Below are positions 23,177-41,703 of a stretch of DNA of 41,805 nucleotides, one piece after another; positions within the stretch are counted from its first letter, which is position 1, and each line of letters starts with the position of its first letter. Below the pieces are notes generated by a model. The model was not told where the DNA came from. It did no database searches and saw nothing but the letters and a program-made list of their open reading frames with translations. The stretch lies in assembly GCA_031285685.1 (NCBI GenBank), contig JAITVS010000337.1:1-41805 (forward strand), given 5' to 3'. The position numbers were made by a program, and so were the translations under genes. Origin of the DNA: Tannerella sp. GTDB lineage: Bacteria; Bacteroidota; Bacteroidia; Bacteroidales; Tannerellaceae.

Positions 23177-23392
23177 CATACGAATAGCCTGAATTAAACA
23201 AGGAATGAAGCTACAAACATTTAACTATCAGAGCAGAAAATGACAACTCGCTGCTATTTGTTAAAAAGTAATCATTCAATATCAGGACAAATGGTATATG
23301 ATTTTCTTGTTTTATGTAGGTGAATTTAAAATTAAGATATCTTATGTTAGACAAAAATGAAACTTATTTTAGCAACTAAATTATTTAAATGT

Positions 23393-24046: not shown

Positions 24047-24077
24047 CAGATGTTTAACATTAAAAGATGATAACGAT

Positions 24078-24954: not shown

Positions 24955-25353
24955 ATGGCAAAATTAGACAAAATAAATCAAGTTCCTTTCTGCAGTAGGC
25001 CTTTATTACAAATGGATATAAAAATAAAAGCAACAGGATCTGTTTGTCATTTAAACTGCAGCGATTACACTTGTTTGAGTAAAGAACAATCGCTCAATAA
25101 CGGCTACCACCGGCATATATCAGATAAAACATTTAAAAATTTCATAAAACAATATATTGAACAGCAAAATGCGCATGCACTTCTTATGGAATGCCGGGAG
25201 TCCCAATACTTGTTCGCCCATGCCGGCGAATACTCTAAAAATCGTTTATTAAAAACATCTTCAGGAGAATTAGGACTGAATAATTGATGTAAGGCTTGTA
25301 CAAATATTTCAGTCGAATAGATCCTTATACAAGAAAAATATTAAATTATTTAA
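24955..25353 (+). pseudogene. Shrunken anaerobic sulfatase-maturase relic
   Basis: An open frame of 110 codons (24955-25287) matches the first 76 or so residues of the intact maturase at 35227 (FIKQYIEQQNA is identical) and then jumps to its last 80 residues (KNRLLKTSSGE). About 280 internal residues are deleted, including most of the radical-SAM barrel. The radical-SAM motif CNLNCGYC has become CHLNCSDYTC. The C-terminal CRECRYLFACSGEC has become CRESQYLFAHAGEY, losing three of four cysteines. DNA similarity continues past the stop (25285-25287) to about 25353, where the lipoprotein gene begins. It cannot be an active enzyme. It is either a relic carried with the duplication or a small protein kept for another role. 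Confidence 0.85.
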
Positions 25354-25357
25354 AAGT

Positions 25358-26011
25358 ATGAAAAACAAATTCAATATCGGATTAATGACAATCCTGCTCT
25401 CAGGACTTTTTTTCACTGCATGTGAAACATACCCTGACGAAGATGCATATGTATACGAACAACTTGCATCAGTAACGGCCTACGACACTTCTGTCCAATT
25501 TAAAGGAACGGGAAAAAAATTCAATACTTATGCGATTGGAGAAAATGTCGTTTATGTAGGAGATAACGATACGGTAATGATATCAAAAGACGATCCCAGA
25601 GTAGCTTCATTTGTTTCCAAAATCGAGGACAAAATGGAGAAATACTTAGGTTACCAGGAGATTAAGAATGGATTTATTATTCCGGATATGGGAATTTCCA
25701 TTACGGTTCTTAAGGTTGACAACTACATTATTGATTACTATAATCCTTATTGGTGGGATTGCGGGTATTACTACTATTATTGGTGGGATTGCGGATATTA
25801 TCCGTACTATCCATACTACTATCCGACTATTGTCGGTTCATATACCACCGGTACCGTATTTGTGGATATGATTGATTTGACCGGCAGTTCAGATAAAAAG
25901 AATGTTGTCTGGACCGGAGTAATAAGAAGTCTGTTAACAGGAACAGAAACAGATGCTGATATAGACCGTGCTTTGGAAGACTGTTTCTCACAAACCAAAG
26001 CGTTTAATTAA
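25358..26011 (+). CDS. DUF4136-like lipoprotein with aromatic repeat, copy 2
   Basis: Paralogue of the gene at 23393, 217 residues, same lipobox (FFTAC, Cys22) and same doubled YWWDCGYYY motif at residues 131-149, the only change there being Phe140 to Tyr. The two copies differ mainly at residues 73-108 and in the 170-204 region. The gene begins immediately after the maturase relic and has no promoter of its own closer than 24834. It is followed 31 bases later by barrel copy 2 and, like copy 1, is probably anchored in the outer membrane. Function unknown. Confidence 0.75.
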   Translation: MKNKFNIGLMTILLSGLFFTACETYPDEDAYVYEQLASVTAYDTSVQFKGTGKKFNTYAIGENVVYVGDNDTVMISKDDPRVASFVSKIEDKMEKYLGYQEIKNGFIIPDMGISITVLKVDNYIIDYYNPYWWDCGYYYYYWWDCGYYPYYPYYYPTIVGSYTTGTVFVDMIDLTGSSDKKNVVWTGVIRSLLTGTETDADIDRALEDCFSQTKAFN

Positions 26012-26042
26012 CAGATGTTTAACATTAAAAGATGACAACGAT

Positions 26043-26663
26043 ATGAAAAAAATAATTTTAATTATGCTGTTTGCCCTTATCGGCTTATCGACGACTTTGC
26101 AGGCTCAAAGAAGGCAATACTATAGTGCGGGTTGGGACGTAGGTTTTCCCATGGATAAGTTTTCTGATTTTATTTCCGATGCGAGCTTAAGAAGTTTCTT
26201 CTTTTCCGGTAATGTGTTTGTAACAGATGCCTTCTCTGTCGGATTTAAATTCGGATATAATTCCTATCACGAAAATAAAGACCGTACAACTTATTACATT
26301 GACAACGGACTGGCCATGACAGCCGCAAGTTATAATTATGCCGTAACAGTCCCGATGCAGGCAGGAGGGTATTACCACTTTAATGTAGGGAATATGATCG
26401 AACCTTATATAGGACTTGGGTTGGGCGTAAATTATATCAATGAAGAGGTGTTTGTTCAGGATTGGGAAATTTATGACAATCAGTGGGCTTTTCTTTTAAA
26501 CCCGGAAATAGGTGTTCGCATTTCATTCGGCGAATCGCCCGTAGCTCTCGGAATAAGGTGCGGATATAACTATAACTTCAATTCATTCGAAGCTTTTGGG
26601 GTAGAATACAATAACTTTCAATCCCTCAATCTGGGAATATCTTTGAGTTATACTATAAAATAA
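26043..26663 (+). CDS. Small outer-membrane beta-barrel protein, copy 2
   Basis: Paralogue of the protein at 24078, 206 residues, with the same signal peptide and strand pattern. Differences are confined to a few positions, for example MGK to MDK, RAT to RTT and VIVQ to VFVQ. High protein identity with scattered silent changes indicates the sequence is being conserved, not simply duplicated yesterday. It is closed by a very strong hairpin, so the following sulfatase is a separate unit. Confidence 0.78.
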   Translation: MKKIILIMLFALIGLSTTLQAQRRQYYSAGWDVGFPMDKFSDFISDASLRSFFFSGNVFVTDAFSVGFKFGYNSYHENKDRTTYYIDNGLAMTAASYNYAVTVPMQAGGYYHFNVGNMIEPYIGLGLGVNYINEEVFVQDWEIYDNQWAFLLNPEIGVRISFGESPVALGIRCGYNYNFNSFEAFGVEYNNFQSLNLGISLSYTIK

Positions 26664-26777: not shown

Positions 26778-28382
26778 ATGAGCTTAAAAGAAAAACTGAA
26801 AAACTGTGGTAAAATTGCCGCAGTAGGCGCAGTTCTCGCCGCAGGAACAATTGTTTCTCAAACGGCGGAAGCACAACAAACCAAAGGAGGAAAGCCGAAT
26901 ATCCTCGTTATTTTCGGTGATGATATCGGTTATCATAATATCAGTGCATATAGTTTGGGGCTTATGGGCTTTAAAACTCCTAATATCGACCGCATAGCTA
27001 AAGAGGGTATTCTTTTTACCGATTATTACGGACAACAGAGCTGCACTGCAGGGCGTGCCGCCTTCATCACCGGGCAATGTCCGTTTCGAACCGGTCTGAC
27101 AAAAGTGGGAATGCCGGGCGCACCGGTCGGGTTGCAGGCAGAAGATCCTACGATTGCCGAATTTCTGAAACCATTAGGCTATGCAACAGGACAGTTCGGT
27201 AAAAACCACCTGGGAGATCAGGACAAATATTTACCAACCAGGCATGGTTTTGATGAGTTTTTCGGTAACCTCTACCACCTGAATGCGGAAGAAGAACCGG
27301 AACAACCTGAATATCCGAAAGATGCCGCTTTTCTTGCGAAACATAAACCTCGTGGCGTATTGCGTTCCACGGCCGATGGGAAAGTAGAAGATACAGGCCC
27401 GTTGACCAAGAAGCGTATGGAGACCGTTGATGAAGAATTCCTGGCTGCAGCCAAAGACTTCATCACCCGGCAGGTAAAGTCCGGAACTCCTTTTTTCACA
27501 TGGTTTAATGCCACCCGCATGCATGTCAATACTCATCTGAAACCGGCATCTCAAGGTAAGACAGGATTAGGATTACAGGCTGACGGTATGGTAGAACATG
27601 ATGCCATGGTCGGTGATCTGCTCAAGTTGCTGGACGATCTGGGAATTGCAGATAATACAATTGTTATTTACACAACTGACAACGGCGCGATGAAAAATCA
27701 GTGGCCCGACGGAGGTGTATCTCCTTTCCGTTCAGAAAAAGATACCAACTGGGAAGGAGCGGTACGCGTACCTTGTGCAGCGCGTTGGCCGGGACATATT
27801 CAGCCGGGAACCATCAGCAATGATATTGTCTCTGCCGAAGACTGGTTACCAACACTTGTAGCAGCGGCCGGTGGTAACACCAATTTAGTACAGGATGCGC
27901 CCAAAGGTGTTTCTGCCGGAAACAAATCATTCAAAGTTCATTTAGACGGATACAACCAATTACCTTACCTTACCGGAAAGGCTGATAAATCACCACGCAA
28001 TGAGTTTTATTACTTTGATGACGATGGAAATCTGGTCGCCGCCCGCAAGGGACAATATAAAGTCACATTCGCATTGCAGGAAGCTACAGGAATGGCTATC
28101 TGGAGGACAAAACTCAGCACATTGAAGGCTCCTTTCCTGATTGATTTGCGTCAGGATCCGTATGAATATGCTTATGACGGTTCTACCAACTACGAAAAAT
28201 GGATGTTCGATAAGAACTTCCTGATATTCGATGTTATCGACATGGTGAGTGGTTATCTGGCAACATACGAAAATTTTCCTCCCCGTCAAAGTCCGGCAAG
28301 CTTCACGATCGACAAGGTGACCGAAAACATGAAAGCTGCCGCAGATGCAAGAAACGCCGCGGCATCACGTAGTGCCAAATAA
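26778..28382 (+). CDS. Type I sulfatase with shared island leader (sulfatase 1)
   Basis: An arylsulfatase-family (S1) enzyme that removes sulfate esters from a carbohydrate or other organic sulfate. The catalytic motif is SCTAGRAAF, with Cys89 to be turned into formylglycine; its CxAxR form is a substrate for anaerobic radical-SAM maturases. Calcium-site residues include Asp48-Asp49 (FGDDIG) and the TTDNGAMKN segment; GKNHLGD supplies the active-site Lys. Residues 1-33 form an unusual leader, KLKNCGKIAAVGAVLAAG, nearly identical in the two other sulfatases, ending in AEAQ as a cleavage site, so the enzyme is exported. A separate unit between two hairpins. Most similar to sulfatase 2 (shared DEFFGNLYHLNAEEEPE). 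Substrate unknown. Confidence 0.92.
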   Translation: MSLKEKLKNCGKIAAVGAVLAAGTIVSQTAEAQQTKGGKPNILVIFGDDIGYHNISAYSLGLMGFKTPNIDRIAKEGILFTDYYGQQSCTAGRAAFITGQCPFRTGLTKVGMPGAPVGLQAEDPTIAEFLKPLGYATGQFGKNHLGDQDKYLPTRHGFDEFFGNLYHLNAEEEPEQPEYPKDAAFLAKHKPRGVLRSTADGKVEDTGPLTKKRMETVDEEFLAAAKDFITRQVKSGTPFFTWFNATRMHVNTHLKPASQGKTGLGLQADGMVEHDAMVGDLLKLLDDLGIADNTIVIYTTDNGAMKNQWPDGGVSPFRSEKDTNWEGAVRVPCAARWPGHIQPGTISNDIVSAEDWLPTLVAAAGGNTNLVQDAPKGVSAGNKSFKVHLDGYNQLPYLTGKADKSPRNEFYYFDDDGNLVAARKGQYKVTFALQEATGMAIWRTKLSTLKAPFLIDLRQDPYEYAYDGSTNYEKWMFDKNFLIFDVIDMVSGYLATYENFPPRQSPASFTIDKVTENMKAAADARNAAASRSAK

Positions 28383-28583: not shown

Positions 28584-29543
28584 ATGACAGGACTTGAACA
28601 AATCCTCACCCTTCAAAAAAATATGGGTAAAAGCATCATCGGGCAAGAAAATGTAATATCCAAAATCATTATTGCTCTACTCACGGACGGCAATGTCCTG
28701 CTGGAAGGGTTGCCGGGACTGGCAAAGACACGTGCAGTTAAAAGTCTTGCCGCAAACCTGAATTGTAGACTAAACAGGATACAGTTCACTCCGGATTTAT
28801 TGCCATCTGATATTACAGGAACTGAAATTTACCAGCCTCAGACGGAGCAAAAATTTGTTTTCCAACCAGGACCTATTTTCAGCAATCTGGTGTTGGCGGA
28901 CGAAATCAACCGTGCTCCTGCAAAAGTTCAATCCGCACTCCTGGAGGCAATGGAAGAAAGACAGGTATCCGTTGCCGGAAAAACGTATAAGATGGAACCT
29001 TTGTTTATGGTGCTGGCGACACAGAACCCCATCGAGCAAGAAGGGACTTATCCCCTGCCCGAGGCCCAGCTCGACCGTTTCATCATGAAAATCTTGATTG
29101 ATTATCCGAGTTCGGAAGAAGAAGCGAAAATAGTAGAACTGGTACGGAACGAGACAAAAGGAGAAATATCCAAAACGATGCCTATAGACCAGAATACAGT
29201 GCTTGACGTACGTAAGGAAATTAATAATGTACTGGTCAGTCAGGCTGCGGAAAAATATATGGTTGATCTGGTAAGTGCGACCCGTTATCCGGACAAAATC
29301 AATAAAGATCTTGCCCGGTGGATTGCCTACGGAGCCAGTCCGCGCGGTACAATCGCCTTAGACAAATGTTCCCGGGCCGTTGCATGGCTGGACGGCCGTA
29401 ATAGTGTTACTCCCGATGACACCCGCTATATCGTCCACGATGTACTGCGCCACCGCGTTATCCTGTCTTATGAAGCCAATGCCGACAGAGTCGATATCAA
29501 TTCCGTTATCGATCATATTCTGAAGAACGTTGCGGTTATTTAA
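28584..29543 (+). CDS. MoxR-family AAA+ ATPase
   Basis: A cytoplasmic AAA+ ATPase of the MoxR type, which works with VWA-domain proteins as a chaperone for folding, cofactor or metal insertion in client proteins. Walker A is GLPGLAKT (42-49), Walker B LVLADE (102-107), followed by INRAPAKVQSALLEAMEE and the ATQNPIEQEGTYPLPEAQLDRF sensor region, all diagnostic. It heads a run DUF58, DUF4381, VWA, VWA, BatD, the usual Bat order. Here that run leads straight into sulfatase-maturation genes. The length (319) is normal. Confidence 0.93.
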   Translation: MTGLEQILTLQKNMGKSIIGQENVISKIIIALLTDGNVLLEGLPGLAKTRAVKSLAANLNCRLNRIQFTPDLLPSDITGTEIYQPQTEQKFVFQPGPIFSNLVLADEINRAPAKVQSALLEAMEERQVSVAGKTYKMEPLFMVLATQNPIEQEGTYPLPEAQLDRFIMKILIDYPSSEEEAKIVELVRNETKGEISKTMPIDQNTVLDVRKEINNVLVSQAAEKYMVDLVSATRYPDKINKDLARWIAYGASPRGTIALDKCSRAVAWLDGRNSVTPDDTRYIVHDVLRHRVILSYEANADRVDINSVIDHILKNVAVI

Positions 29544-29564
29544 TCATTCTTTTTTGTAATTCAT

Positions 29565-30509
29565 ATGGGTACAACAACATATCCGGCAAAAGTCGTAACC
29601 AACCTCAGTGACCTGATGCGTTTCGAATACATGGTTCAGGCAGGTAATATCCTGCCTAAACGCAACATATATTCGATACTGGCAGGACAACATGCAGCCA
29701 AAATGCGCGGACGGGGTCTCGACTTTGAAGAAGACCGCCTGTATGTTCCCGGTGATGATATCCGTAACATCGACTGGAAAGTAACTGCCCGTACCAACGA
29801 GACTTACTCCAAAGTATTTAATGAAGAAAAGGAACGGCCGACTTTTACCCTGCTTGATCAAAGTACAATGATGTTTTTCGGTTCACAATTATATGTAAAA
29901 TCGGTTACGGCAGCTCATGTTGCGGCATTAACCGCATTTTACACAATTAAACGCGGGGACCGGTTCGGCGGCCTTATTTTTAATGAAGACGGATATGATT
30001 ACGTTGAACCTAAACGAAACAAAGCGCTGGTGGAACATTTTCTTCAGTTAGTGGTAGAACGTAATAAGGTATTGCCTTTAAGAAAAAAGATTGCCCTAAA
30101 TTCCGCATTACTGGAAGATATGCTGAACAGAACCAGATCATTAATTACCCATGACTATGTGATTACAGTGATTACCAACCTGCTGATCCTGGATGAAGAC
30201 TGTAAGCATTACCTGAAAAGCATGGCCAATAACAATGATATCATTCTGGTACATGTGGAGGACCCGATGGACAGGCAACTTCCCCCGGGAAAACTGATAC
30301 TGACCGACGGGAAAAAACAGATTTTCTGGAAAAACAGCAATAATAACTGGGGAGAAAAATACAGTTCATTCTATGAATCCCGTCTGGATGCCCTGATTGA
30401 AGAGTTCAGGCATTACAGGATTCCGGTTTCTATTATGAGTACAGCTATACCTGTTGAAAAGCAAATCAAATCAGGAATAGGAAGACGTGTCAAAAAAGAT
30501 TCTAATTAA
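29565..30509 (+). CDS. DUF58 domain protein
   Basis: A cytoplasmic DUF58 protein, the normal partner of MoxR ATPases, with a VWA-like fold. The diagnostic stretch GRGLDFEEDRLYVPGDDIRNIDWKVTART is present (residues about 47-76), as is the FNEEKERPTFTLLDQS strand with the acidic metal-binding-like residue. It lies 21 bases after MoxR and 5 bases before the next gene, so it is cotranscribed and probably bound to the ATPase. Confidence 0.92.
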   Translation: MGTTTYPAKVVTNLSDLMRFEYMVQAGNILPKRNIYSILAGQHAAKMRGRGLDFEEDRLYVPGDDIRNIDWKVTARTNETYSKVFNEEKERPTFTLLDQSTMMFFGSQLYVKSVTAAHVAALTAFYTIKRGDRFGGLIFNEDGYDYVEPKRNKALVEHFLQLVVERNKVLPLRKKIALNSALLEDMLNRTRSLITHDYVITVITNLLILDEDCKHYLKSMANNNDIILVHVEDPMDRQLPPGKLILTDGKKQIFWKNSNNNWGEKYSSFYESRLDALIEEFRHYRIPVSIMSTAIPVEKQIKSGIGRRVKKDSN

Positions 30510-30514
30510 CAGAT

Positions 30515-30844
30515 ATGAACGATACAATACCGGCATTAGGACAATTTATCGAACCTTCACCCATCAGGTTTATACCTGAGGCTCCGGGATGGTATGCTCT
30601 GGCAATCGTATGCCTGATCATATTATTGTTCGCAGGACTACTGATCCGGAAATATCGTAAAAAAAACCGTTATCGCAGGCTGGCTTTAAACTGGCTGGAC
30701 GGAGAAGAAAAAAAATGCTGGAAACACAGGATTATACACGGCTTATTTACACGGCCGATATGCTTGCCAAAAAAATCAGCATCCAACTATACGGCAGGGA
30801 GAATACAGCCCATCTTGGCAGCCGGGAGTGGCTGGATTACCTGA
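30515..30844 (+). CDS. DUF4381 protein, membrane-anchor part (frameshifted)
   Basis: Residues 1-64 match the N-terminal half of DUF4381 proteins of Bat clusters: EPSPIRFIPEAPGW, then a membrane helix (about 26-45) and the KYRKKNRYRRLALNWLD cytoplasmic flank. After the eight-A run at 30708-30715 the frame no longer makes family-like sequence (residues 68-109 are nonsense). The family sequence resumes in the -1 frame at 30715. The gene is thus broken by one missing base, or translated by slippage at the A run. Confidence 0.7.
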   Translation: MNDTIPALGQFIEPSPIRFIPEAPGWYALAIVCLIILLFAGLLIRKYRKKNRYRRLALNWLDGEEKKCWKHRIIHGLFTRPICLPKKSASNYTAGRIQPILAAGSGWIT

Positions 30845-31005
30845 ATAAAACCTGCCCGTCCGTCTCATTTTCAAATGAAGATGAAACACTGGTGAAAGCC
30901 ATTTATGATCCGGGGATAAGTATCAGCGAAAAACAGGCCGTTACTTTTACCGGAAAAATCAAACAATGGATCAAAAAACATCCGGCTCACGGATCTAATA
31001 AATAA
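30715..31005 (+). CDS. DUF4381 protein, soluble C-terminal part
   Basis: A 96-residue open frame continuing the DUF4381 family after the frameshift: TADMLAKKISIQLYGRE, then REWLDYLNKTC. It has its own ATG at 30715, overlapping the A run, and a GGAGAAG sequence at 30701-30707 at Shine-Dalgarno distance, so it could be translated as a separate protein. One added A would fuse it to the upstream part in frame through ...GEEKKMLETQ. The VWA gene begins two bases after its stop. Confidence 0.65.
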   Translation: MLETQDYTRLIYTADMLAKKISIQLYGRENTAHLGSREWLDYLNKTCPSVSFSNEDETLVKAIYDPGISISEKQAVTFTGKIKQWIKKHPAHGSNK

Positions 31006-31006
31006 A

Positions 31007-32026
31007 ATGAATATGTTTCCCGAGATAGCCAATAGCATGCATTTTGAAGTAGCTCATAAATGGGTATTTATCCTTCTGCCTTTACCCATCCTGATTTATT
31101 TACTACTTCCGGCGTTACACAAACGCAGGGTAGCCATGCTTGTTCCTTTTTTCAACAGGGCGACACATGTATCCGGCCAGCATCCGAGAAAAGGTGCATG
31201 GATCGGACATAAAAATATCATATCCTGGCTGGTCCTCTGCCTGTGCTGGATATGCCTGATCGCCGCAGCTTCATCCCCTCAATTTGTAGGGCAGCCCGAA
31301 AAAAAGACACGGACCGTAAGAAGCTTCCTGATCGCGGCCGATATTTCATTCAGTATGGCACAACGCGACTGGTCGGTAGACGGGAAACCGATGACACGAT
31401 GGGAAGCCGTCAAATACCTGATGAAAGATTTTATCAGGGAAAGAAAAAGCGACCAGGTAGGACTTGAGATGTTTGCTACTCATGCCTATCTCCAGGCCCC
31501 GTTAACAACAGACCTGGAAACGATTAACTGGCTGCTCGACCAGACAGAAGTCGGCATGGCGGGACAAATGACCAGCATCGGTGAAGCAATTGCCTATGGC
31601 ATCAAAATATTCCGGCAGGATACGGTCAAACAACGGGTGATGTTATTAATGACCGACGGTGTGGATGCCGGAAAGGAAATCCTTCCTTTGGATGCGGCAG
31701 CGGTTGCTAAACAGGATAGTATTATGATTTATACACTCGGTATAGGAAATTCCTCCGGCGGAGGTTATGCCATTGACGAACAACTGCTGACACAAATCGC
31801 AGAAACGACCGGCGGCAAATATTTCCGGGCCGACAGCCAACAGGAAATGCAACAGGTATATGCGGAACTCAATAAGCTACAACCGATCGAGTATGAAGAA
31901 AACACATACAAGCCTGTCGTTTTGCTTTATATGTACCCACTGGGAATTGCCATCATCCTCTCTCTCATGTTTTATTTCCTGAGCGGATCTTTCAATTTAT
32001 TAAAAGAAATAGGGTCGAACCGTTAG
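31007..32026 (+). CDS. batA: BatA-like VWA membrane protein
   Basis: A VWA-domain protein anchored in the inner membrane at both ends (helices about 18-36 and 73-92, and near 302-322), the VWA facing the periplasm. The metal-ion-dependent adhesion site DISFS (112-116) is complete, with the TDGVDAG strand further on. A BatA-type subunit of the MoxR/VWA assembly. It is followed after 50 bases by the second VWA gene. The symbol is by family resemblance. Confidence 0.85.
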   Translation: MNMFPEIANSMHFEVAHKWVFILLPLPILIYLLLPALHKRRVAMLVPFFNRATHVSGQHPRKGAWIGHKNIISWLVLCLCWICLIAAASSPQFVGQPEKKTRTVRSFLIAADISFSMAQRDWSVDGKPMTRWEAVKYLMKDFIRERKSDQVGLEMFATHAYLQAPLTTDLETINWLLDQTEVGMAGQMTSIGEAIAYGIKIFRQDTVKQRVMLLMTDGVDAGKEILPLDAAAVAKQDSIMIYTLGIGNSSGGGYAIDEQLLTQIAETTGGKYFRADSQQEMQQVYAELNKLQPIEYEENTYKPVVLLYMYPLGIAIILSLMFYFLSGSFNLLKEIGSNR

Positions 32027-32076
32027 ATAATGGGGAGTTAATGAAATCAGATTATTAAAAATAAGCATATAGTCCA

Positions 32077-33420
32077 ATGAAAACATTCATACATCATATC
32101 ACATCTATAGACTGGCATGTTTTTCATTTCCTTCGTCCGTGGGCATTGTGGCTGTTTATTCCATTGGGGGTTATTGTCATTATTCTGTTACTGGGAAACC
32201 GTGAACAGAAGAAATGGAAGAAAATAATCGCTCCGGCGCTGAGGCCTTTTATGTTTAGTAAAGGGAATCAGAATGCCATTTTATTACCGCTTATCTTTCT
32301 TGTTTCAGGTTTAAGTTGTATGATCCTGTCACTGGCCGGTCCCACATGGAAAAAACGTGAGATTCCGGAAGAAAAAATACCATCAGTCGTCATGATTTCA
32401 CTGGATCTTTCCAGATCAATGACGGCAACCGACATACAGCCATCACGGCTGGAGCGGGCAAAAATGAAAATAACCGACTTCCTGGATGCAAATCCCCGCT
32501 CAAGAGCCGGGTTAATAGCATTTGCAGGAACTCCTCATACGGTTCTGCCTTTTACCGGTGATTATAAACTGATCAAACATCATGCTGCCAGTTTATACAA
32601 TTGGGAGATGCCGGTCCAGGGTACTGATATGGTCCTGAATTTTGCTCTTATCGACACTATGATGAAAAATGTGGAAGCGCCGAGTACGATCCTGTTAATG
32701 ACGGATGCAATCGATAACAATGAGGCAACCTTCCTGTCCGACTATATTCATAATTCGATACACAGGCTGGAGATACTTCTGTTTTCAACTCCGGACGGAG
32801 CGCCTGTTCCCGGTGTGGAAGCCGTCATTTCTAAACAAGATCCGGTTACACTCAACAACCTCAGACAAAACGAAAAGATTACGGTCACCCCGATTACATT
32901 GGATAAATCTGATGTGGAAGGTATAGCCCAAAAGATCAGTGATAACCTGATATTTGAAAAAGAAACAAAAGAAAAGGCGAAAGACTGGGACGATATGGGA
33001 TGGATACTCCTGATACCGGCTTTATTAATCACCCTGTTCTGGTTTCGGAAGGGCTGGGTCGTTCAATGGTGCTGGATCCCACTGGTATTCCTTTCCTTTT
33101 CGTCCTGCGGTGTGGATAGTAAATATCCGGATCTGTGGTATACCAAAGATTATCAGGCCGAATTGTGGTATGAAAAAGGAGATTACGACAAAGCTGCCGA
33201 ATTATTTCAGGATAATCCTCATAAAGCAGCAGCGTACATCAAAGCAGAAGATTTTCTGTCTGCCGCAATCCTGCTGGCTGATGACACCACGGCAAGCGGA
33301 AAATACAACTATGGCCTCGCTCTGGCAAAATTAGGACTTTACGACGATGCGATCAGCGCTTTTCAGGAGGCGGCATCCAAAGATCCTGACCTGCAGAATA
33401 AAGCCTATCACAATATCTAG
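32077..33420 (+). CDS. batB: BatB-like VWA protein with TPR tail, amber-terminated
   Basis: N-terminal membrane helices (about 22-40 and 68-88), a VWA domain with DLSRS at 110-114, a further helix (about 308-325), a short cysteine-containing segment (FSSCG), then tetratricopeptide repeats with YEKGDYDKAAELF and LAKLGLYDDAISAF. The frame ends at TAG (33418-33420) inside a TPR helix (AYHNI), not at a natural domain end. The same frame stays open afterwards through 33813. The N-terminal VWA part is intact and is a BatB-type subunit; the TPR part corresponds to BatC. Confidence 0.82.
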   Translation: MKTFIHHITSIDWHVFHFLRPWALWLFIPLGVIVIILLLGNREQKKWKKIIAPALRPFMFSKGNQNAILLPLIFLVSGLSCMILSLAGPTWKKREIPEEKIPSVVMISLDLSRSMTATDIQPSRLERAKMKITDFLDANPRSRAGLIAFAGTPHTVLPFTGDYKLIKHHAASLYNWEMPVQGTDMVLNFALIDTMMKNVEAPSTILLMTDAIDNNEATFLSDYIHNSIHRLEILLFSTPDGAPVPGVEAVISKQDPVTLNNLRQNEKITVTPITLDKSDVEGIAQKISDNLIFEKETKEKAKDWDDMGWILLIPALLITLFWFRKGWVVQWCWIPLVFLSFSSCGVDSKYPDLWYTKDYQAELWYEKGDYDKAAELFQDNPHKAAAYIKAEDFLSAAILLADDTTASGKYNYGLALAKLGLYDDAISAFQEAASKDPDLQNKAYHNI

Positions 33421-33432
33421 GCGTCACAATTA

Positions 33433-33813
33433 ATGAAAGATCAGGCCTCTTCGGTACTTCGATTTCATCCTCATGTAAATCCTCTTGACAGTGTCCTGAA
33501 AAATACGGAGAAGGAAAAACTGAAGGAACGGAAACCGACCGCAGAAGATGAACAATTATCTTCTGATACGGAAGTAAAAAAGTTACCTACGACCGGAGAC
33601 AGAATGAGTGACGAAGTAGCCAGTGATATACACAGGGCCAAAGAACAGGAATTTCCCCCTAAGGATTTTAGCTTAGAGAACCAGATGCCTATTGAAACGA
33701 AGGTCCTGATGCAAAAGACAAATGCAGATCCGGGAGAATTTCTTCACCGCCGCTTTAAAATACAAAAGCAGAAATATTATCCGGATGTCAAACAAGGAAA
33801 AGAAACCTGGTAA
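33433..33813 (+). CDS. Small ORF in frame after the amber stop (BatC-like remainder)
   Basis: A 126-codon frame in the same phase as the VWA-TPR gene; codons 33421-33432 between them have no stop. Its first residues (ASQLMKDQAS when read across) complete the broken TPR helix. The rest is charged and low in complexity (KEKLKERKPTAEDEQ) and ends in a basic segment, as in the tail of Bat TPR proteins. It is either the lost C-terminus of the upstream protein or a separately started soluble piece. No domain of its own is recognised. Confidence 0.55.
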   Translation: MKDQASSVLRFHPHVNPLDSVLKNTEKEKLKERKPTAEDEQLSSDTEVKKLPTTGDRMSDEVASDIHRAKEQEFPPKDFSLENQMPIETKVLMQKTNADPGEFLHRRFKIQKQKYYPDVKQGKETW

Positions 33814-33825
33814 CACTTTCTAAAG

Positions 33826-35187
33826 ATGAAAAAGAGCTTATCAAAATACATTCAACAGGCTTTGTCGCTGGTATTATTATGTTTTATCTACAATACAGGG
33901 ACAATAGAAGCCCAGGTATTCTCCAGTGTAGATCTGAACCGGAAATCGGTCTATATCGAACAGCCTTTCCGTGTCACGGTCACGGTCTATACCAAAACAT
34001 GGTTTACTGCTCCTGTTGAATTCGGGAACCTTCAGATCCCCAACACGTTTATCATTCCTTTTGATAAAACGCAACCGGGAATGTTTACTGTGGGAGGAAA
34101 ACAATACCCCGGAATACAGTTCTATTATATTGTATTTCCCTATAAAGCAGGAAATTTCACCGTCCCGGCACTGGAGTTAACAGTCCAAAGCCCGCCGGAA
34201 GGCAGCTCCCAGGCACAAAAACTCACACTAAAGACTACACCCCAACCATTTATTGTCAAAGATGTTCCTAAAGAACTCAAGAGTAAGGGCGCATGGTTCG
34301 TAGCGACAAACGTAACGATGCATGAAACATGGAATCCCTCTTCTACTGACTACAAAGTCGGGGATGTTGTAAAACGCATCATCACCATTGATGCCAAAGG
34401 AACCCTGCCTCAATTCATTCCTGACATCAGTAAACAGGAACCGCTGAAGTGGGCCGGCATCTATCCGCAGGATCCTGTACTGACTGATACCAGAAGCGGA
34501 GGTGATGCCAACGGAAGAAGCGTCCAGACCATCACATACCTGATGGAAAAAGCCGGGGATTTCACAATGCCTGAAATTTCAGTTTCATTCTGGAACCCTT
34601 ATACTGCCAAAATAGAAACAAGATCGACCGGAAATGTCAGGATACATGTGAATGACAACCCCAATCTCGGTATCCTGACAACGCTGAAAGATAGTCTAAA
34701 GACTACGATTTCAGCCCATGCGACGGAAGCGAAAGCAAAAACGCCGTTCCTTATTCTCGGAATAAAGTGGTATCAATTTGCCGGAGGCCTTGCTATCGCT
34801 CTCATTCTGCTGTACTTCCTGATTAAATGGGGAAGGAAAGGGTGGTTAAAAATCCGCTCCAAACGAGAAAAATACCGAAACAGCGAACCTTACTTCTTCA
34901 GCCGGTTTCAACACACAGGCAAGGAACCGGAAGCATTTGTAAATGCTTTATACAGCTGGTGGGATCATTACAACGGTAAATCGTTTGCTTCTGTGAGTAA
35001 ATCGTTAAGTGCAGAAAACAAGCAAAAAGAAAATGAAGATTTTATGCGCTTCCTCGAAAAGACAGTGAATCATGAAAAAACGGACGATCCTGAAAAAATA
35101 AAGCAGGAGTTGAAGAAATTCAGGGCGGAGAAAGAACAGCAACGCCTGAATAAACATCGTTTCGAAAACCTATTCGATAATTTGTAG
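33826..35187 (+). CDS. batD: BatD family protein
   Basis: A BatD (oxygen-tolerance) protein: signal peptide (to about residue 30, IEAQ), large periplasmic region of Ig-like strands (for example YIEQPFRVTVTVYTKTW), one membrane helix (about 312-335), and a cytoplasmic helical tail rich in Lys/Glu. It completes the MoxR/DUF58/VWA/BatD set. It is followed after 39 bases by the sulfatase maturase gene with no terminator, which ties the set to sulfatase maturation. The function of BatD is not biochemically settled. Confidence 0.88.
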   Translation: MKKSLSKYIQQALSLVLLCFIYNTGTIEAQVFSSVDLNRKSVYIEQPFRVTVTVYTKTWFTAPVEFGNLQIPNTFIIPFDKTQPGMFTVGGKQYPGIQFYYIVFPYKAGNFTVPALELTVQSPPEGSSQAQKLTLKTTPQPFIVKDVPKELKSKGAWFVATNVTMHETWNPSSTDYKVGDVVKRIITIDAKGTLPQFIPDISKQEPLKWAGIYPQDPVLTDTRSGGDANGRSVQTITYLMEKAGDFTMPEISVSFWNPYTAKIETRSTGNVRIHVNDNPNLGILTTLKDSLKTTISAHATEAKAKTPFLILGIKWYQFAGGLAIALILLYFLIKWGRKGWLKIRSKREKYRNSEPYFFSRFQHTGKEPEAFVNALYSWWDHYNGKSFASVSKSLSAENKQKENEDFMRFLEKTVNHEKTDDPEKIKQELKKFRAEKEQQRLNKHRFENLFDNL

Positions 35188-35226: not shown

Positions 35227-36537
35227 ATGAGTAATACTTCTCTACATAAATCGCAGCAAATGTTCCGGGGAAAACCCATGGTGCGGATGCATACAATGAT
35301 AAAGGCTACGGGACCTGTCTGTAATCTGAACTGTGGCTATTGCTATTATCTAAGCAAAGAACAGTTGCTTAGTACCGACAGTCATTGGCGTATATCAGAC
35401 GAGACACTTGAACGTTTCATAAAACAATACATCGAACAGCAAAATGCGCGTACGGTCGTATTTTCATGGCAGGGAGGAGAGCCTTCGTTGTTGGGATTAG
35501 ATTTTTACAAAAAGGTTGTCGAATTACAAAAGAAATACGCACCGTCTTATGTACGGTGTGAAAACGACCTGCAAACCAATGGCACGCTTTTAGACGATAA
35601 GTGGTGCGAATTCCTCAGGGAACACGACTTCCTGGTCGGTTTAAGTATTGACGGGCCAAAACATCTCCATGATGCATATAGAACCTATAAAGGAGGGAAA
35701 GGATCATTCGATCGCGTTTTGGAGTCGGCCAAATTATTAAATAAACATCAGGTAAAGTTTGCTACACTAACAGTAGTGAATGATATAAATGCCGGACATC
35801 CGCAGGAAGTATATCAATTCCTGAGAGACGAAATCAGGAGTACGCAAATGCAATTTATTCCTATCGTAGAATCCCGGGATTTTCAAACGACAGCTCCTCA
35901 ACATTGGGATTCAGGCAAATTACCGGATGAAAATTCCCAAAGGGTAAATCCCAAACACCCCGACTCGTTTCTTGCGGAATGGTGTGTAGAGCCCACCGAT
36001 TACGGCAATTTTCTGATTAAAATCTTTGACGAATGGTATAAAAATGATTTCGGCAAGATTTACATCCCGTTTTTTGATAGCGCTGTGGAACAATGGATGG
36101 GAAGACCATCACCGCTGTGTATTTTTTCACCGATTTGCGGTAAAGGTTTAGCGATGGAACACAACGGGGATATTTATGCCTGCGACCACTATGTTTATCC
36201 TGAGTACAAACTGGGTAATATCAACAAAACGCCCCTGATTGACATGGCATTGGCGCAGGAACAGGAAAGGTTCGGGTATAGCAAGGATTTCATGTTGCCC
36301 ATGAAATGCAGGGAATGCCGGTACCTGTTCGCCTGTTCCGGTGAATGTCCTAAAAACCGTTTATTAAAAACATCATCAGGAGAATCGGGTCTGAATTACT
36401 TATGCAAAGGCTTGTATAAATATTTCAGCCACATAGATCCATCCATAAGAAAAATAGTAAATAGATTGGGTTATGAGGTCGCGGATGATGTTCCTCCATT
36501 GAGTGAAAATATAAAAGAAAAAGAGGTCCTAAAATAA
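35227..36537 (+). CDS. Anaerobic sulfatase-maturating radical SAM enzyme
   Basis: Converts the catalytic Cys or Ser of type I sulfatases to formylglycine without oxygen, using S-adenosylmethionine and three [4Fe-4S] clusters. The radical-SAM motif CNLNCGYC is at residues 32-39. The GGEPSLLG motif follows near residue 82. The C-terminal SPASM domain is complete: CIFSPICGKG, YACDHYVYPEY and CRECRYLFACSGEC. The length (436) is typical of anSME. It lies 6 bases before a trigger-factor-like gene and upstream of two sulfatases with CTAGR motifs, its expected clients. A truncated second copy lies at 24955. Confidence 0.94.
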   Translation: MSNTSLHKSQQMFRGKPMVRMHTMIKATGPVCNLNCGYCYYLSKEQLLSTDSHWRISDETLERFIKQYIEQQNARTVVFSWQGGEPSLLGLDFYKKVVELQKKYAPSYVRCENDLQTNGTLLDDKWCEFLREHDFLVGLSIDGPKHLHDAYRTYKGGKGSFDRVLESAKLLNKHQVKFATLTVVNDINAGHPQEVYQFLRDEIRSTQMQFIPIVESRDFQTTAPQHWDSGKLPDENSQRVNPKHPDSFLAEWCVEPTDYGNFLIKIFDEWYKNDFGKIYIPFFDSAVEQWMGRPSPLCIFSPICGKGLAMEHNGDIYACDHYVYPEYKLGNINKTPLIDMALAQEQERFGYSKDFMLPMKCRECRYLFACSGECPKNRLLKTSSGESGLNYLCKGLYKYFSHIDPSIRKIVNRLGYEVADDVPPLSENIKEKEVLK

Positions 36538-36543
36538 ATTTAT

Positions 36544-37302
36544 ATGAAAACGATTGTAAATGATCTCGGAAATCATAAGAAAGAGTTGTGTGTCATGGTT
36601 TCATGGGATATGATCAAAGCAGACTATAATGATCTCCTGAAAAGATATGCCGGCTTACCGGTAAAGGGATTTCGTTCGGGAAAAGCCCCGGCAAATACAA
36701 TTGAAACAATATTTAGAAGTCATTTAAAATATGATCTCCTAACAAGGGTTTCTACCCGTTTATGCAGAACTGCATTAAAAGAAATAAATATGGTAGCCGG
36801 CTCACCGATCGAATTGTCCGATAGCAAACTGAAAAAAAACGAAAGCCTTGAATTTAAGGCCTGTTTTATCGAAATGCCCCGGTTCGTATTACCTGAATAC
36901 AAACATCTGAATTTGCAATCGGAAGATACGGAAAACAAACTGGACGAAATATCAGAAAAACTACTGGAACAAACAGATATTTCTTTACCTGATTCATTTA
37001 TAGACAGCGAATTGAAATATTCGGAAATACAGGACAACCCTTTTCCCGATATGGAAAGAAAAGCAGCGGCAGATCGAATTAAACTGATGTTGATTCTAAA
37101 GAAGATCGCTAATCAGGACAATATAGAAATCGATGAGAAAGATATTGAAAAAAGGATAAAAATTATAGCAGAAGAAAATGATGTGACACCGGAAGAACTG
37201 AAAGAATTTTTGATCGCAAATAATGGATTGTCCCGTCTGGCTGATACTTTAACAGCCGAAGCCGTATTGGCTTATATCATTGATATACAAAATCCAGAAT
37301 AG
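36544..37302 (+). CDS. Trigger factor-like chaperone lacking the PPIase domain
   Basis: A 252-residue relative of trigger factor, about 60% of the normal length. The N-terminal ribosome-binding domain is recognisable (about 1-115), including the ribosome-docking signature GFRSGKAP at 42-49 and the AGSPIEL turn. The central FKBP-type PPIase domain is absent: after LPEYKHLNL a short linker leads straight to the substrate-cradling C-terminal helices (about 140-252; LPDSFIDSE, ERKAAADRIKLMLILKKIA, EAVLAYIIDI). A ribosome-associated or free cytoplasmic holdase is likely. It is cotranscribed with the maturase and precedes two sulfatases, so it may serve them in particular. A separate general trigger factor is expected elsewhere in the genome. 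Confidence 0.82.
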   Translation: MKTIVNDLGNHKKELCVMVSWDMIKADYNDLLKRYAGLPVKGFRSGKAPANTIETIFRSHLKYDLLTRVSTRLCRTALKEINMVAGSPIELSDSKLKKNESLEFKACFIEMPRFVLPEYKHLNLQSEDTENKLDEISEKLLEQTDISLPDSFIDSELKYSEIQDNPFPDMERKAAADRIKLMLILKKIANQDNIEIDEKDIEKRIKIIAEENDVTPEELKEFLIANNGLSRLADTLTAEAVLAYIIDIQNPE

Positions 37303-37355: not shown

Positions 37356-39074
37356 ATGACACTTAAAGACAAATTGAAAAGATGTGGTATGGTTGCAGCA
37401 GTAGGAGCCGTTCTGGCGGCCGGCGCCATTGTACCGCAAAAGGCAGATGCACAAAAAAATGCCAAGCCCAATATCCTCGTTATTTTTGGCGATGATATAG
37501 GAACAACCAATGTAAGTGCATACAGTGGAGGGCTTATGGGGTATGAAACACCCAATATTGATAGGTTGGCAAAAGAGGGACTTAAATTTCAGCATTATTA
37601 TGCAGAACAATCCTGTACTGCAGGAAGAGCGGCCTTTTTGACCGGGCAGCACGGTATCCGGACAGGATTAACGAAAGTAGGATTTCCCGGAGCTCCTATG
37701 GGAATGAGTCAGGAAGATCCCTCTATCGGCATATTTATGCAAAGCCTGGGATATGCTACCGGACAGTTCGGTAAAAATCATGTGGGCGACCGCAACGAAT
37801 CTCTTCCAACCGTAAATGGTTTTGACGAATTTTTCGGAAACTTATATCACTTAAACGCGGAAGAAGAACCTGAGCTTCCTGATTATCCGAAAGATCCCGC
37901 CTATCGTGCAAAATTCGGACCGCGCGGCGTATTGGATTGCAAAGCTTCCGATAAGGACGACCCTACAGTAGATCCCCGTTTCGGAAGGATCGGGAAGCAA
38001 ACGGTTAAAGATACGGGACCGCTGACGAAGAAAAGAATGGAGACAATTGATGACGAAACTTCGGCAAGAGCAATTGATTTCATCAAAAGACAGGCAAATG
38101 ATGGTAAACCGTTCTTCTGCTGGTTCAATTCAACCCGTATGCATTTACGCACACATGTAAGAGATTCACATCGCGGAAAATATCAATATGGAGATAGCGA
38201 GTACATCGACGGAATGATTGAGCATGACGCAACGATCGGCGAAATATTAAAAACGCTGGATGATCTGGGTATTACCGAAAATACGATTGTTGTGTATACG
38301 ACCGATAACGGACCTCATATGAACACCTGGCCCGATGGGGCGATGACTCCCTTCCGTTCGGAAAAGAACACCAACTGGGAAGGCGCTTTCAGGGTACCTT
38401 GTTTGGTTCGCTGGCCGGGACATATAGAGCCGGGAACCGTTACTAACGAAATAATGAGCCATAACGACTGGATTCCGACTCTTTGCGCTGCCGCCGGAGA
38501 TGATGCGGTTGTCAGTAAATGTTTAAAAGGTTATACATATAAAGGCAAAACATACAAAGTTCATTTGGACGGCTATAATCAATTACCTTTCTTAACGACA
38601 GTGAAGGGAAGCGCGGCAAATAACAATGGAGTAAAGAGCGCCCGGGACAATTTCTTTTATTCCGATGATGACGGCCTGTTAGTAGCCTACAGAAAAGGTG
38701 CCATGAAATATGTGTATGCAGAGCAACGGTTGCCAGGTACCATGGGACTATGGGCGGAACCATTTACTCAATTGCGTTTACAAAAATTATTTAACCTGAT
38801 GCAGGATCCTTTCGAACGTGCAGACATCACCTCAAACACGTATTGGGATTGGAACTTGACTCAAGTTGGCGCTGCATATGGCACTATGCAGGATGTCTTT
38901 GATTTTGTCGAAACATTTGAAGAGTATCCTCCGCGATCATTCCCTCCGAGCTTTGTACCTTCTAAAATAATGGAACAGGAAAAAACAAAAATCAAAGCAA
39001 AAAGGGCACTCGAAAATTATGAGAAAAAAATGATGCCGCAAGATGGTCAACAGTCCCAATCAAAGAAGAAATAA
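37356..39074 (+). CDS. Type I sulfatase with shared island leader (sulfatase 2)
   Basis: S1-family sulfatase, 572 residues. The maturation motif is SCTAGRAAF, with Cys87; Asp46-Asp47 (FGDDIG) and TTDNGPHMN are calcium-site segments, and the HVGD and RMHLRTH segments provide active-site His/Arg. The leader KLKRCGMVAAVGAVLAAG, ending ADAQ, is nearly that of sulfatases 1 and 3. It resembles sulfatase 1 most, with a 40-residue insert near residue 195 and a longer basic tail. It comes 53 bases after the trigger-factor-like gene and is probably in the same operon. Substrate unknown. Confidence 0.92.
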   Translation: MTLKDKLKRCGMVAAVGAVLAAGAIVPQKADAQKNAKPNILVIFGDDIGTTNVSAYSGGLMGYETPNIDRLAKEGLKFQHYYAEQSCTAGRAAFLTGQHGIRTGLTKVGFPGAPMGMSQEDPSIGIFMQSLGYATGQFGKNHVGDRNESLPTVNGFDEFFGNLYHLNAEEEPELPDYPKDPAYRAKFGPRGVLDCKASDKDDPTVDPRFGRIGKQTVKDTGPLTKKRMETIDDETSARAIDFIKRQANDGKPFFCWFNSTRMHLRTHVRDSHRGKYQYGDSEYIDGMIEHDATIGEILKTLDDLGITENTIVVYTTDNGPHMNTWPDGAMTPFRSEKNTNWEGAFRVPCLVRWPGHIEPGTVTNEIMSHNDWIPTLCAAAGDDAVVSKCLKGYTYKGKTYKVHLDGYNQLPFLTTVKGSAANNNGVKSARDNFFYSDDDGLLVAYRKGAMKYVYAEQRLPGTMGLWAEPFTQLRLQKLFNLMQDPFERADITSNTYWDWNLTQVGAAYGTMQDVFDFVETFEEYPPRSFPPSFVPSKIMEQEKTKIKAKRALENYEKKMMPQDGQQSQSKKK

Positions 39075-39169: not shown

Positions 39170-40768
39170 ATGGGAATCAAAGAAAAACTAAGAAATTGTG
39201 GTAAGGTTGCTGCCATAGGAGCAATACTTGCTGCCGGCGCCATCATTCAGCCATCTGAAGCGCAGGCACAGAAAAGTCCTACGCAAAAGCCAAACATCAT
39301 TGTTATTATGACAGATGATGTCGGGTATGGAGATTTAGGAAGTTATGGTGGAGGTATAATGCGTGGCGCTCCCACTCCAAACCTCGACCGTATGGCGGCC
39401 GAAGGTATGAGATTTACAAATTACTATGGACAGGCCAGCTGTACGGCGGGCAGAGCCTCCTTCATTACCGGACGGATTCCGATCCGTACTTCCATGTCCT
39501 CGGTGTTGGCCCCCGGAGATCCTAACGGATTGAAAAAGGAGACTCCGACGATAGCCCAGGCTATGAAAAATGTAGGATATAAAACGGTACAATTAGGAAA
39601 ATGGCATTTGGGTGACAAGGAAGAAAATTTCCCGACATCCATCGGCTTTGATGAAATGTACCACATGACACCCTACTATGCCGGCGTTTATGCATATGAA
39701 GACCCGGAATTACATCCGAATTTTCCAAGAAACGATGCTGCTTTCATGAAAGAATGGCGGGCATTAGCCGTTCTCTCTGAATTTAAGGGCGTTGCAGGTA
39801 AAAAGGCAGAGGTTACGGTTGAGAACTTCAATTATGGAAATCTGAAAACCGGGGATGACAACATGCGGGCTACTGCAATCGATTGGATTAAGAAGAATGC
39901 GAAATCGGATCAACCCTTTTTTATGTACCTGAACTTTCTGAAAGTACACAACCCGAATAATCCTTCCGACCGTTGGAAGGGCAAAGCTCCCGGAGGTATG
40001 CCTTATCAGGACGCCTTAATGGAAATGGACGACAATAGCGGACAAATTATTCAGGCGATACGTGATTTGGGCCTTTCCGAAAATACCTTAATTATATGGA
40101 CAACTGACAATGGAGCATGGATTGACGCGTGGCCTGATGCGGGCTATACTCCATTTCGAGGCACGAAGGGAACACCTTTTGAAGGTGGTTTTCGCTGTCC
40201 TGCCATTGCCTGGTGGCCGGGGCATATTCCGGCAGGCTCGGTCGCTCACGACATGATGTTTCACATGGATTGGTGGCCAACCTTTGTAAAAATAGCAGGT
40301 GGTGAAGCGCCTCCGTATTATTGGAAAGATAATAATGGAAAGAAAATTATTTTCGACGGTATAGATAACAGTGACCTGATATTAGGAAAAGGCCCGGGTA
40401 AACGTGACTTTTTTGCTTTCTTTAATGATCAAAAATTCGGAGCGATCCGTTATACTAACCTGAAAATGGTTTTTACAGCTAAAGATACGTGGTTAGGCCC
40501 TGAGCTTGACTTAAACCCTCCGGCTATTTATGATTTGTGGCAGGATCCGGGAGAAAATTATGACTTGATTTTTAATGGAGCAGCTCCAACCCGGGGTGAG
40601 TTAAAATCATCTCCGGGACGTTATTCCGGACAGGACAATGCATGGATGGCGATTAAGATGAATCCGCCATTGATAAAATTTCTGGAAGAATTCAGGGAAT
40701 ATCCCAATATACCCTATCAACCTTGGGGCATGGGGTTAACAAAAGTGATTCCTGAAGATTTCAAATAA
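39170..40768 (+). CDS. Type I sulfatase with shared island leader (sulfatase 3)
   Basis: S1-family sulfatase, 532 residues, more distant from the other two. The motif is SCTAGRASF with Cys91. The start of the mature domain, TDDVGYGDLGSYGG, is of the common arylsulfatase type; GKWHLGD and TTDNGAWID are further active-site segments. Despite the different catalytic domain, the leader KLRNCGKVAAIGAILAAG and the AQAQ cleavage site match the other two. It follows a hairpin and is closed by another, so it may be expressed at a different level. Substrate unknown. Confidence 0.92.
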   Translation: MGIKEKLRNCGKVAAIGAILAAGAIIQPSEAQAQKSPTQKPNIIVIMTDDVGYGDLGSYGGGIMRGAPTPNLDRMAAEGMRFTNYYGQASCTAGRASFITGRIPIRTSMSSVLAPGDPNGLKKETPTIAQAMKNVGYKTVQLGKWHLGDKEENFPTSIGFDEMYHMTPYYAGVYAYEDPELHPNFPRNDAAFMKEWRALAVLSEFKGVAGKKAEVTVENFNYGNLKTGDDNMRATAIDWIKKNAKSDQPFFMYLNFLKVHNPNNPSDRWKGKAPGGMPYQDALMEMDDNSGQIIQAIRDLGLSENTLIIWTTDNGAWIDAWPDAGYTPFRGTKGTPFEGGFRCPAIAWWPGHIPAGSVAHDMMFHMDWWPTFVKIAGGEAPPYYWKDNNGKKIIFDGIDNSDLILGKGPGKRDFFAFFNDQKFGAIRYTNLKMVFTAKDTWLGPELDLNPPAIYDLWQDPGENYDLIFNGAAPTRGELKSSPGRYSGQDNAWMAIKMNPPLIKFLEEFREYPNIPYQPWGMGLTKVIPEDFK

Positions 40769-40778
40769 CGCATAATTT

Positions 40779-40806
40779 ATCGGGTAATACTTTTGTGTTG
40801 CCCGAT
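40779..40806 (+). terminator. Hairpin after sulfatase 3
   Basis: ATCGGGTAA (40779-40787) pairs with TTGCCCGAT (40798-40806), extendable by a few bases, followed by T-rich sequence (TTATTATTTATTTT). Confidence 0.6.
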
Positions 40807-40842
40807 ATTATTATTTATTTTGCATAATATAATACTTGAGCA

Positions 40843-41703
40843 ATGAAAACAAATCTATCAATTATTCCAATCGCATTTATTTTATTATTCACCGGATGTG
40901 ATCCGGGTATTAAGCCAGACAACAAGGTGGTGGACAACAAGGTGACAAAAGATCCGTTGCCTTCATGGAATAATACGAATAATAAACAAATGATTCTCGA
41001 CTTTGTGGCGAAAGTGACAGACTCCTCAGGTAAAGATTTCGTACCGGAAAAAGACCGGATAGCAGTATTCGACAACGATGGTACTTTATGGTGCGAACAA
41101 CCCCTTTATTTTGAGTTTGTCTATTCTTTCAATGTAATGAAAGATATTATACCGAAACATCCTGAATTATTAAAAAAACCTGAAATAAAAGCGTTGGCCG
41201 AGGGAGACAAAATGACTTTCCTGAAATCAGGGGAAAAGGGATTACTGGAAGTATTCGCATTAAGCCATACAATGCAGGATATCGACAAATTCCGAGAAAC
41301 AGCAAAGAATTGGTTAGATACCGCTACACATGAGAAATTCAAAAAAAAATATGTTGAATTGACCTATAAACCGATGGTGGAACTTTTAGAATATTTGCGC
41401 GCCAACGACTTTACAACTTACATCGTATCAGGAGGATCGAGCATGTTTATTCGTAATTTCAGTGACGAGGCTTATGGAATCCCTTCGGGACAAGTGATAG
41501 GAAGCATGTTGAAGGCGGAGTTTGTTCAGAAAGACAGTACTTTCCAGATTAAGCTTTTGCCGGATGTTTTTCATATCGACGACAATGTCGGAAAACCAGT
41601 AGGAATTTATCAGTTCATCGGAAAAAAACCGATTCTGGCATTCGGCAATTCGGACGGTGATTTACAGATGCTGCAATGGACTACAACTGCATATTCCGTT
41701 TAA
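40843..41703 (+). CDS. HAD-type phosphatase-like lipoprotein, C-terminus lost
   Basis: A secreted haloacid-dehalogenase-superfamily protein. The signal sequence ends in lipobox FTGC (Cys19). All four HAD motifs are present: FDNDGTLW (nucleophile Asp), VSGGSS, the Lys of VGKPVGI, and GNSDGDLQML. Proteins of this lipoprotein group normally continue for about 40-50 residues after motif IV (region following LQWTT). Here the frame ends after TTAYSV, where the TAA is formed at the junction with repetitive, GC-rich DNA that looks like an insertion-element end. Probably a phosphatase with role unknown, last gene of the sulfatase island, now truncated and perhaps inactive. A 15-base tandem repeat doubles the DNKV segment near residue 28. 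Confidence 0.8.
   Translation: MKTNLSIIPIAFILLFTGCDPGIKPDNKVVDNKVTKDPLPSWNNTNNKQMILDFVAKVTDSSGKDFVPEKDRIAVFDNDGTLWCEQPLYFEFVYSFNVMKDIIPKHPELLKKPEIKALAEGDKMTFLKSGEKGLLEVFALSHTMQDIDKFRETAKNWLDTATHEKFKKKYVELTYKPMVELLEYLRANDFTTYIVSGGSSMFIRNFSDEAYGIPSGQVIGSMLKAEFVQKDSTFQIKLLPDVFHIDDNVGKPVGIYQFIGKKPILAFGNSDGDLQMLQWTTTAYSV

Follow-up and report, generated by a model that had tools for sequence, protein, structure and literature searches.

The window, meaning the whole 41,805 nucleotide stretch of a Tannerella contig analysed here, closes with a run of same-strand genes comprising an anaerobic sulfatase maturase, a short homologue of trigger factor (TF), two S1-type sulfatases and a HAD-type hydrolase (Table 1). 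Translation of the short TF gene gives an intact open reading frame of 252 aa. Between the maturase stop codon and its start lie 6 bases, and between its end and the start of sulfatase 1 lie 53, the same spacing as had been given in an initial, sequence-only reading of this DNA. A third sulfatase, encoded upstream in the same putative accessory island, is possibly a further client of the short TF. All three contain the maturation motif CTAGR, of the CxAxR type. Over the first 35 codons the leaders of these sulfatases are very alike, conforming roughly to K-K-L-x-x-C-G-x-x-A-A-x-G-A-x-L-A-A-G, whereas the enzymes themselves are more divergent. The frequency of promoter-like and terminator-like sites in the window did not exceed that in shuffled sequences; a terminator-like stem of 13 pairs is situated downstream of sulfatase 2, ahead of the HAD gene.

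Table 1. Features of the window discussed in the text, in order of position.
Feature	Position	Strand	Basis
DUF4136 gene and outer-membrane beta-barrel gene, tandem duplicate	23357-24698 and 25358-26663
Maturase remnant, 110 aa frame	24955-25287		Identity to G181 maturase
Sulfatase 3, signal-like leader, CTAGR	26778..28382	+	PF00884, translation
MoxR/DUF58/DUF4381/BatA/BatB/BatD-type cluster	28584-35187	+
Anaerobic sulfatase maturase (radical SAM / SPASM), without SEC-C tail	35227..36537	+	TIGR03942, 487.9 bits (cut-off 349); Pfam
Short TF: N-domain, linker, trimmed Arm1, Arm2, without middle domain	36544..37302	+	Pfam, alignment, model
Ribosome-docking signature of short TF	36667..36690	+	Translation
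Sulfatase 1, S1-type, signal-like leader, CTAGR	37356..39074	+	PF00884, translation
Sulfatase 2, S1-type, similar leader, CTAGR	39170..40768	+	PF00884, translation
Terminator-like stem	40778-40807
HAD-type hydrolase	40843..41703	+	PF12710

The contig can be assigned to the host genome from its sequence: its CTP synthase gene, the sole strong copy in that genome, is 94% identical to that of a relative in the same genus (G009), ruling out assembly contamination, while identity to G009 is 95% for serS and 91% for kdsB, and the rnf genes, along with galE in one relative, are found in a shared order among relatives. The part of the contig from position ~23 kb to its end had no counterpart in up to 20 kb around the same genes in relatives, the sole exception being weak, short sulfatase matches of 31-37% in L112, and on this comparison looks like an accessory island. 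Upstream of sulfatase 3 within it, a 110 aa frame corresponds to two distinct segments of the maturase, with 55-60% identity to the maturase of G181, a genome from another family of the same order, and is an internally deleted maturase remnant; it is flanked by the tandem duplicate of a DUF4136 gene and an outer-membrane beta-barrel gene. The interval between sulfatase 3 and the maturase is occupied by a second cluster of the MoxR/DUF58/DUF4381/BatA/BatB/BatD type, which is divergent and may be a further device of the island for maturation or assembly. Its MoxR reaches only ~50% identity with any MoxR encoded in 25 genomes, among them the host genome.

In Pfam searches, residues 1-140 of the short TF matched Trigger_N (67 bits, cut-off 22.2) and residues 167-246 matched Trigger_C (62.8 bits, cut-off 22.7), both scores being at least 40 bits above the cut-offs; the best Trigger_C stretch corresponded to profile positions 82-161 of 162, that is, to the second half. 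FKBP_C had no Pfam match in the protein, and the NCBIfam model of full-length tig (TIGR00115) scored 108.6 bits, below its cut-off of 180.2. The absence of an FKBP_C match is insufficient to establish loss of the middle domain, because full-length Bacteroidota TFs give none either; the loss is concluded instead from contiguity and from a structural model. A profile of the two known short TFs aligned with residues ~1-124 and then ~291-406 of E. coli TF, no residues remaining between the N- and C-terminal parts for a middle domain. Set against the published limits of E. coli TF (N core 1-111, linker 112-149, PPIase 150-245, HA1 linker 246-302, Arm1 303-359 and Arm2 360-415; PMC4626277), this alignment indicates a protein made up of the N-domain, linker, last turns of HA1, a shortened Arm1 and Arm2, the PPIase head and most of HA1 having gone. 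The sequence-only reading was therefore right that the central FKBP domain is missing; its statement that the cradle helices are kept holds for the arms, with Arm1 shortened, but not for most of the HA1 back helix. It had also placed a ribosome-docking signature, GFRSGKAP, at residues 42-49, as the translation confirms. GFR is present in both short TFs and in all compared TFs in which the motif was found, and the positions after it vary in the short TFs as they do in full-length TFs. Judged by its two domains, the protein belongs to the TF superfamily but falls outside the definition of a canonical three-domain Tig.

Structure prediction of the short TF alone, one of the checks suggested with the sequence-only reading, recovered the TF fold. 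The AlphaFold model from a 10-sequence alignment (mean pLDDT 88, pTM 0.69) superposed on E. coli TF (1w26) over 245 residues with a Z score of 12.8, on the TF N-domain structure 1oms with a Z score of 12.6 and on the Thermotoga maritima C-domain (2nsa) with a Z score of 11.4 over 138 residues, the next matches being MPN555 (Z 9.7 over 137 residues) and SurA (Z about 7). Because the aligned sequences were distant full-length TFs, the model was partly guided to the TF fold, and a single-sequence model (pLDDT 37.8) was useless; the model hence supports the domain assignment rather than details.

Eight full-length Bacteroidota TFs, including that of the host, possess a middle segment of the right length with no FKBP_C match at E limits of 0.01 and 0.1 (L001, L065, L009, L019, L031, L035, L036 and L040), and a TF from a contig titled Ruminococcus matched FKBP_C with 67 bits. 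The PPIase domain of these Bacteroidota TFs may be degenerate, and the middle domain may long have been so in the host lineage; as the Bacteroidota TFs tested have no recognisable FKBP, the loss in the short TF is less drastic than it appears. What sets the protein apart is that its middle domain is wholly gone and that its Trigger_C score exceeds that of the host's full-length TF (20.2 bits). A recent copy of the host TF is ruled out as its origin by an identity of ~22% over 82 residues and by phylogeny. Among the 73 TFs of a tree, both short TFs grouped in one clade (support 100), on a long branch, separate from the clade of Bacteroidales TFs (support 100), deep support being moderate.

The second short TF, of 250 aa and 46% identical to the first, is found in G181 (assembly 97% complete, 1% contaminated), where the gene order is that of the window: maturase, short TF, sulfatase and HAD. 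Between the two genomes the maturases are 76% identical, sulfatase 1 and its counterpart 81% and the HAD proteins 33-34%; sulfatase 3 is 53% identical to the G181 cassette sulfatase. The leader of the G181 sulfatase is related to those of all three window sulfatases. Both genomes additionally have a full-length TF, located on another contig in the window genome, and these are 36-37% identical to one another; the short TF is thus less conserved than the maturase and sulfatase, though not less so than full-length TF. The outer neighbours of the cassette are a MoxR/DUF58/BatA/BatB/BatD-type cluster in the window and two DUF1254/DUF1214 proteins in G181, and third codon positions of the cassettes are just 36-45% identical; these differing flanks and near-saturated positions imply that the linkage is old. 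The maturase and sulfatase are more alike than the core gene for CTP synthase (62% identical), from which it follows that the cassette was probably moved by transfer. Both cassettes may go back to a single event (n = 2), and the linkage, although old, may thus have arisen only once.

It might be argued from the contrast between 46% identity for the short TF and 76-81% for its neighbours that it is a decaying relic, a functionless TF fragment carried along with the cassette. This reading is largely refuted by frames that are intact in both families and nearly equal in size (252 and 250 aa), and by the pattern of codon positions within the short TF gene, where second positions are 69% identical between the genomes and third positions, at saturation, 36%. 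The GFR motif and a C-terminal stretch common to both proteins, GLSRL-AE-YII, have likewise been retained, and we regard a relic as very improbable. Two intact copies of the same architecture in two families also rule out a pseudogene or a truncation produced by sequencing error.

Short TFs are rare. Nearly all of 295 genomes of the order have one Trigger_N gene, two being found only in the window genome and G181, and the short TF profile was matched in 2/393 genomes of the order, 1/125 of the window's family, 1/8 of G181's family and 1/325 of the class, where the order, family, class and phylum samples overlap. A phylum sample of 395, queried with the short TF protein alone, gave only full-length TFs as other matches. 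Two scans of genome contigs detected no new short TF, these being weak negatives owing to the poor patterns obtainable from two rows or a single sequence; viral contigs contained none, a broader query returning only full-length TFs, and plasmids no further example. No TF-like gene was present in the neighbourhoods of 28 less related maturases, indicating that the pairing is particular to this lineage. The genome survey that had been suggested for short TFs and their neighbours yielded a single homologue, in the same cassette order, and the cassette is both rare and accessory. The maturase and sulfatase neighbourhood is therefore conserved in more than one lineage, namely the window genome (G000) and G181, from different families, with the limit that n = 2 and that this is possibly one transferred cassette.

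This distribution bears on the possibility that the short TF is a second general ribosome-associated chaperone, present in the island by chance and serving many nascent chains. It has the domains of a general chaperone, E. coli TF engineered to lack the PPIase domain is described as still aiding folding (Gupta et al. 2010, as cited in PMC4626277), and there are only two cases of linkage. Against this, it is rare (2/393 genomes of the order) and occupies an identical place in two families despite reshuffled flanks and near-saturated nucleotides, and we consider the explanation unlikely.

We propose instead that the short TF is a variant without the middle domain that serves the sulfatases encoded in the same cassette, in their co-translational maturation or export, a reading to which we would assign a probability of about one half on the sequence evidence. 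The N-domain would use its GFR loop to dock at the ribosomal exit site, either alongside the normal TF or following it. With its trimmed arms the protein would then keep the emerging sulfatase open, slowing its folding as well as its transfer to Sec, and the radical SAM maturase encoded next to it could thereby oxidise the CTAGR Cys while the chain is still in the cytoplasm, prior to export. From other systems it is established that formylglycine formation takes place on the unfolded chain (PMC5066984) and that TF delays the delivery of many Sec substrates (PMC8076867). Ribosome binding by the short TF, its choice of client, its effect on the maturase and the handover to export are each inferred; its anatomy, its coexistence with a full-length TF and the gene order that it shares with maturase and sulfatase across two families are observed.

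The sequence-only reading had stated that its idea of a dedicated role would fail if close homologues were the only TF of their genomes and usually lay away from maturase or sulfatase genes. The survey gave the opposite picture: the one homologue stands in the same order, beside maturase and sulfatase, and both genomes have a separate full-length TF. The dedicated role is thereby supported, with two members that are perhaps the product of one ancient event spread by transfer, whereas the proposed holdase mechanism is a conjecture, so that the reading as a whole is partly supported. The holding function is further called into question by the reduction, in the short TF, of the Arm1 tip and most of HA1, which are the substrate-holding parts of the TF cradle (PMC4626277). 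A neighbouring possibility is that of a cassette-dedicated export or solubility chaperone, which would keep pre-sulfatases soluble and Sec-competent, or aid their folding, with no particular effect on the maturase. The short TF directly precedes a sulfatase in both genomes, TF is a known chaperone of the secretory pathway (PMC8076867), and such a function requires fewer assumptions than a link to the maturase while fitting the genes almost equally well. It leaves unexplained the position after the maturase in both genomes, however, and related sulfatases elsewhere in the order do without a short TF; we view it as conceivable, but on the improbable side.

A different type of accessory was found on some related maturases of the same order, 7/28 of which have a SecA-like SEC-C motif at the C-terminus in Pfam searches (L076, L077, L079, L083, L092, L094 and L096; for example, CPCGSGKKYKQCC). 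Neither of the maturases linked to a short TF, in the window or in G181, has this tail. The metal-binding tail of SecA interacts with ribosomes (PMC6620043) and with SecB (PMC8076867), and by analogy the SEC-C tail could possibly link the maturase itself to the ribosome, SecB or export. Like the short TF, it would offer a route from maturase to nascent or exported chains, although it acts in cis and its fold is unrelated. The presence of the tail on a subset of maturases hints that such coupling has been selected in these enzymes, and the two arrangements together suggest that it may exist in more than one way in the order, although this is a correlation in which one side has n = 2. The more specific proposal is a tentative one: that anaerobic sulfatase maturases meet nascent, export-bound sulfatases at the ribosome by at least two alternative routes, through a SEC-C tail in cis or a dedicated TF lacking its middle domain in trans. 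The majority of related maturases have neither short TF nor SEC-C tail, which means that such help is not generally needed.

TF is regarded as a generalist chaperone. If the proposed role in sulfatase maturation is correct, the cassette would provide a natural TF tied to one protein modification, such that exit-tunnel chaperones can be client-specialised, and the installation of formylglycine would be a ribosome-coupled step. The hypothesis makes it testable how a cytoplasmic radical SAM enzyme meets a sulfatase before the latter is folded or exported, and were the short TF to raise formylglycine yield, it might aid the production of active sulfatases or aldehyde-tagged proteins.

Literature searches, largely of open-access papers, found nothing relevant on TF together with sulfatase and formylglycine, and gave plant Tig2 as the nearest to a natural bacterial TF without a PPIase domain. 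With bacterial TF (Tig; TIGR00115, PF05697 and PF05698), the short TF has in common the N-domain with GFRxG, the linker, the arm helices and a fold extending over 245 residues; it differs in having no middle domain, little of HA1 and a shortened Arm1, in being the second TF of its genome and in lying between a maturase and a sulfatase. The engineered PPIase-less E. coli TF, as described in the citing account (Gupta et al. 2010, in PMC4626277), similarly joins the N-domain to the C-domain, but is a laboratory construct with the whole C-domain, whereas the short TF is natural and is missing most of HA1 as well. MPN555 of Mycoplasma and SurA are structural relatives of the TF C-domain that share its arm-type helical chaperone module; the matched region is without the TF N-domain in both, and SurA is periplasmic.

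The nearest described natural truncation is Tig2 of plant chloroplasts, which, like the short TF, is a truncated second TF beside a full-length one (PMC11731035). As a natural example of a TF that was truncated and took on a different role, Tig2 raises the possibility that the short TF is a ribosome assembly or protection factor, guarding the exit site instead of acting on nascent chains. Such a function appears most improbable, as the short TF retains the arm domain and, unlike a core ribosome factor, is rare and tied to sulfatase genes. Tig2 consists of the ribosome-binding domain alone and has a role in ribosome biogenesis (PMC11731035), while the short TF has a Trigger_C match, modelled arm helices and a place in a sulfatase cassette.
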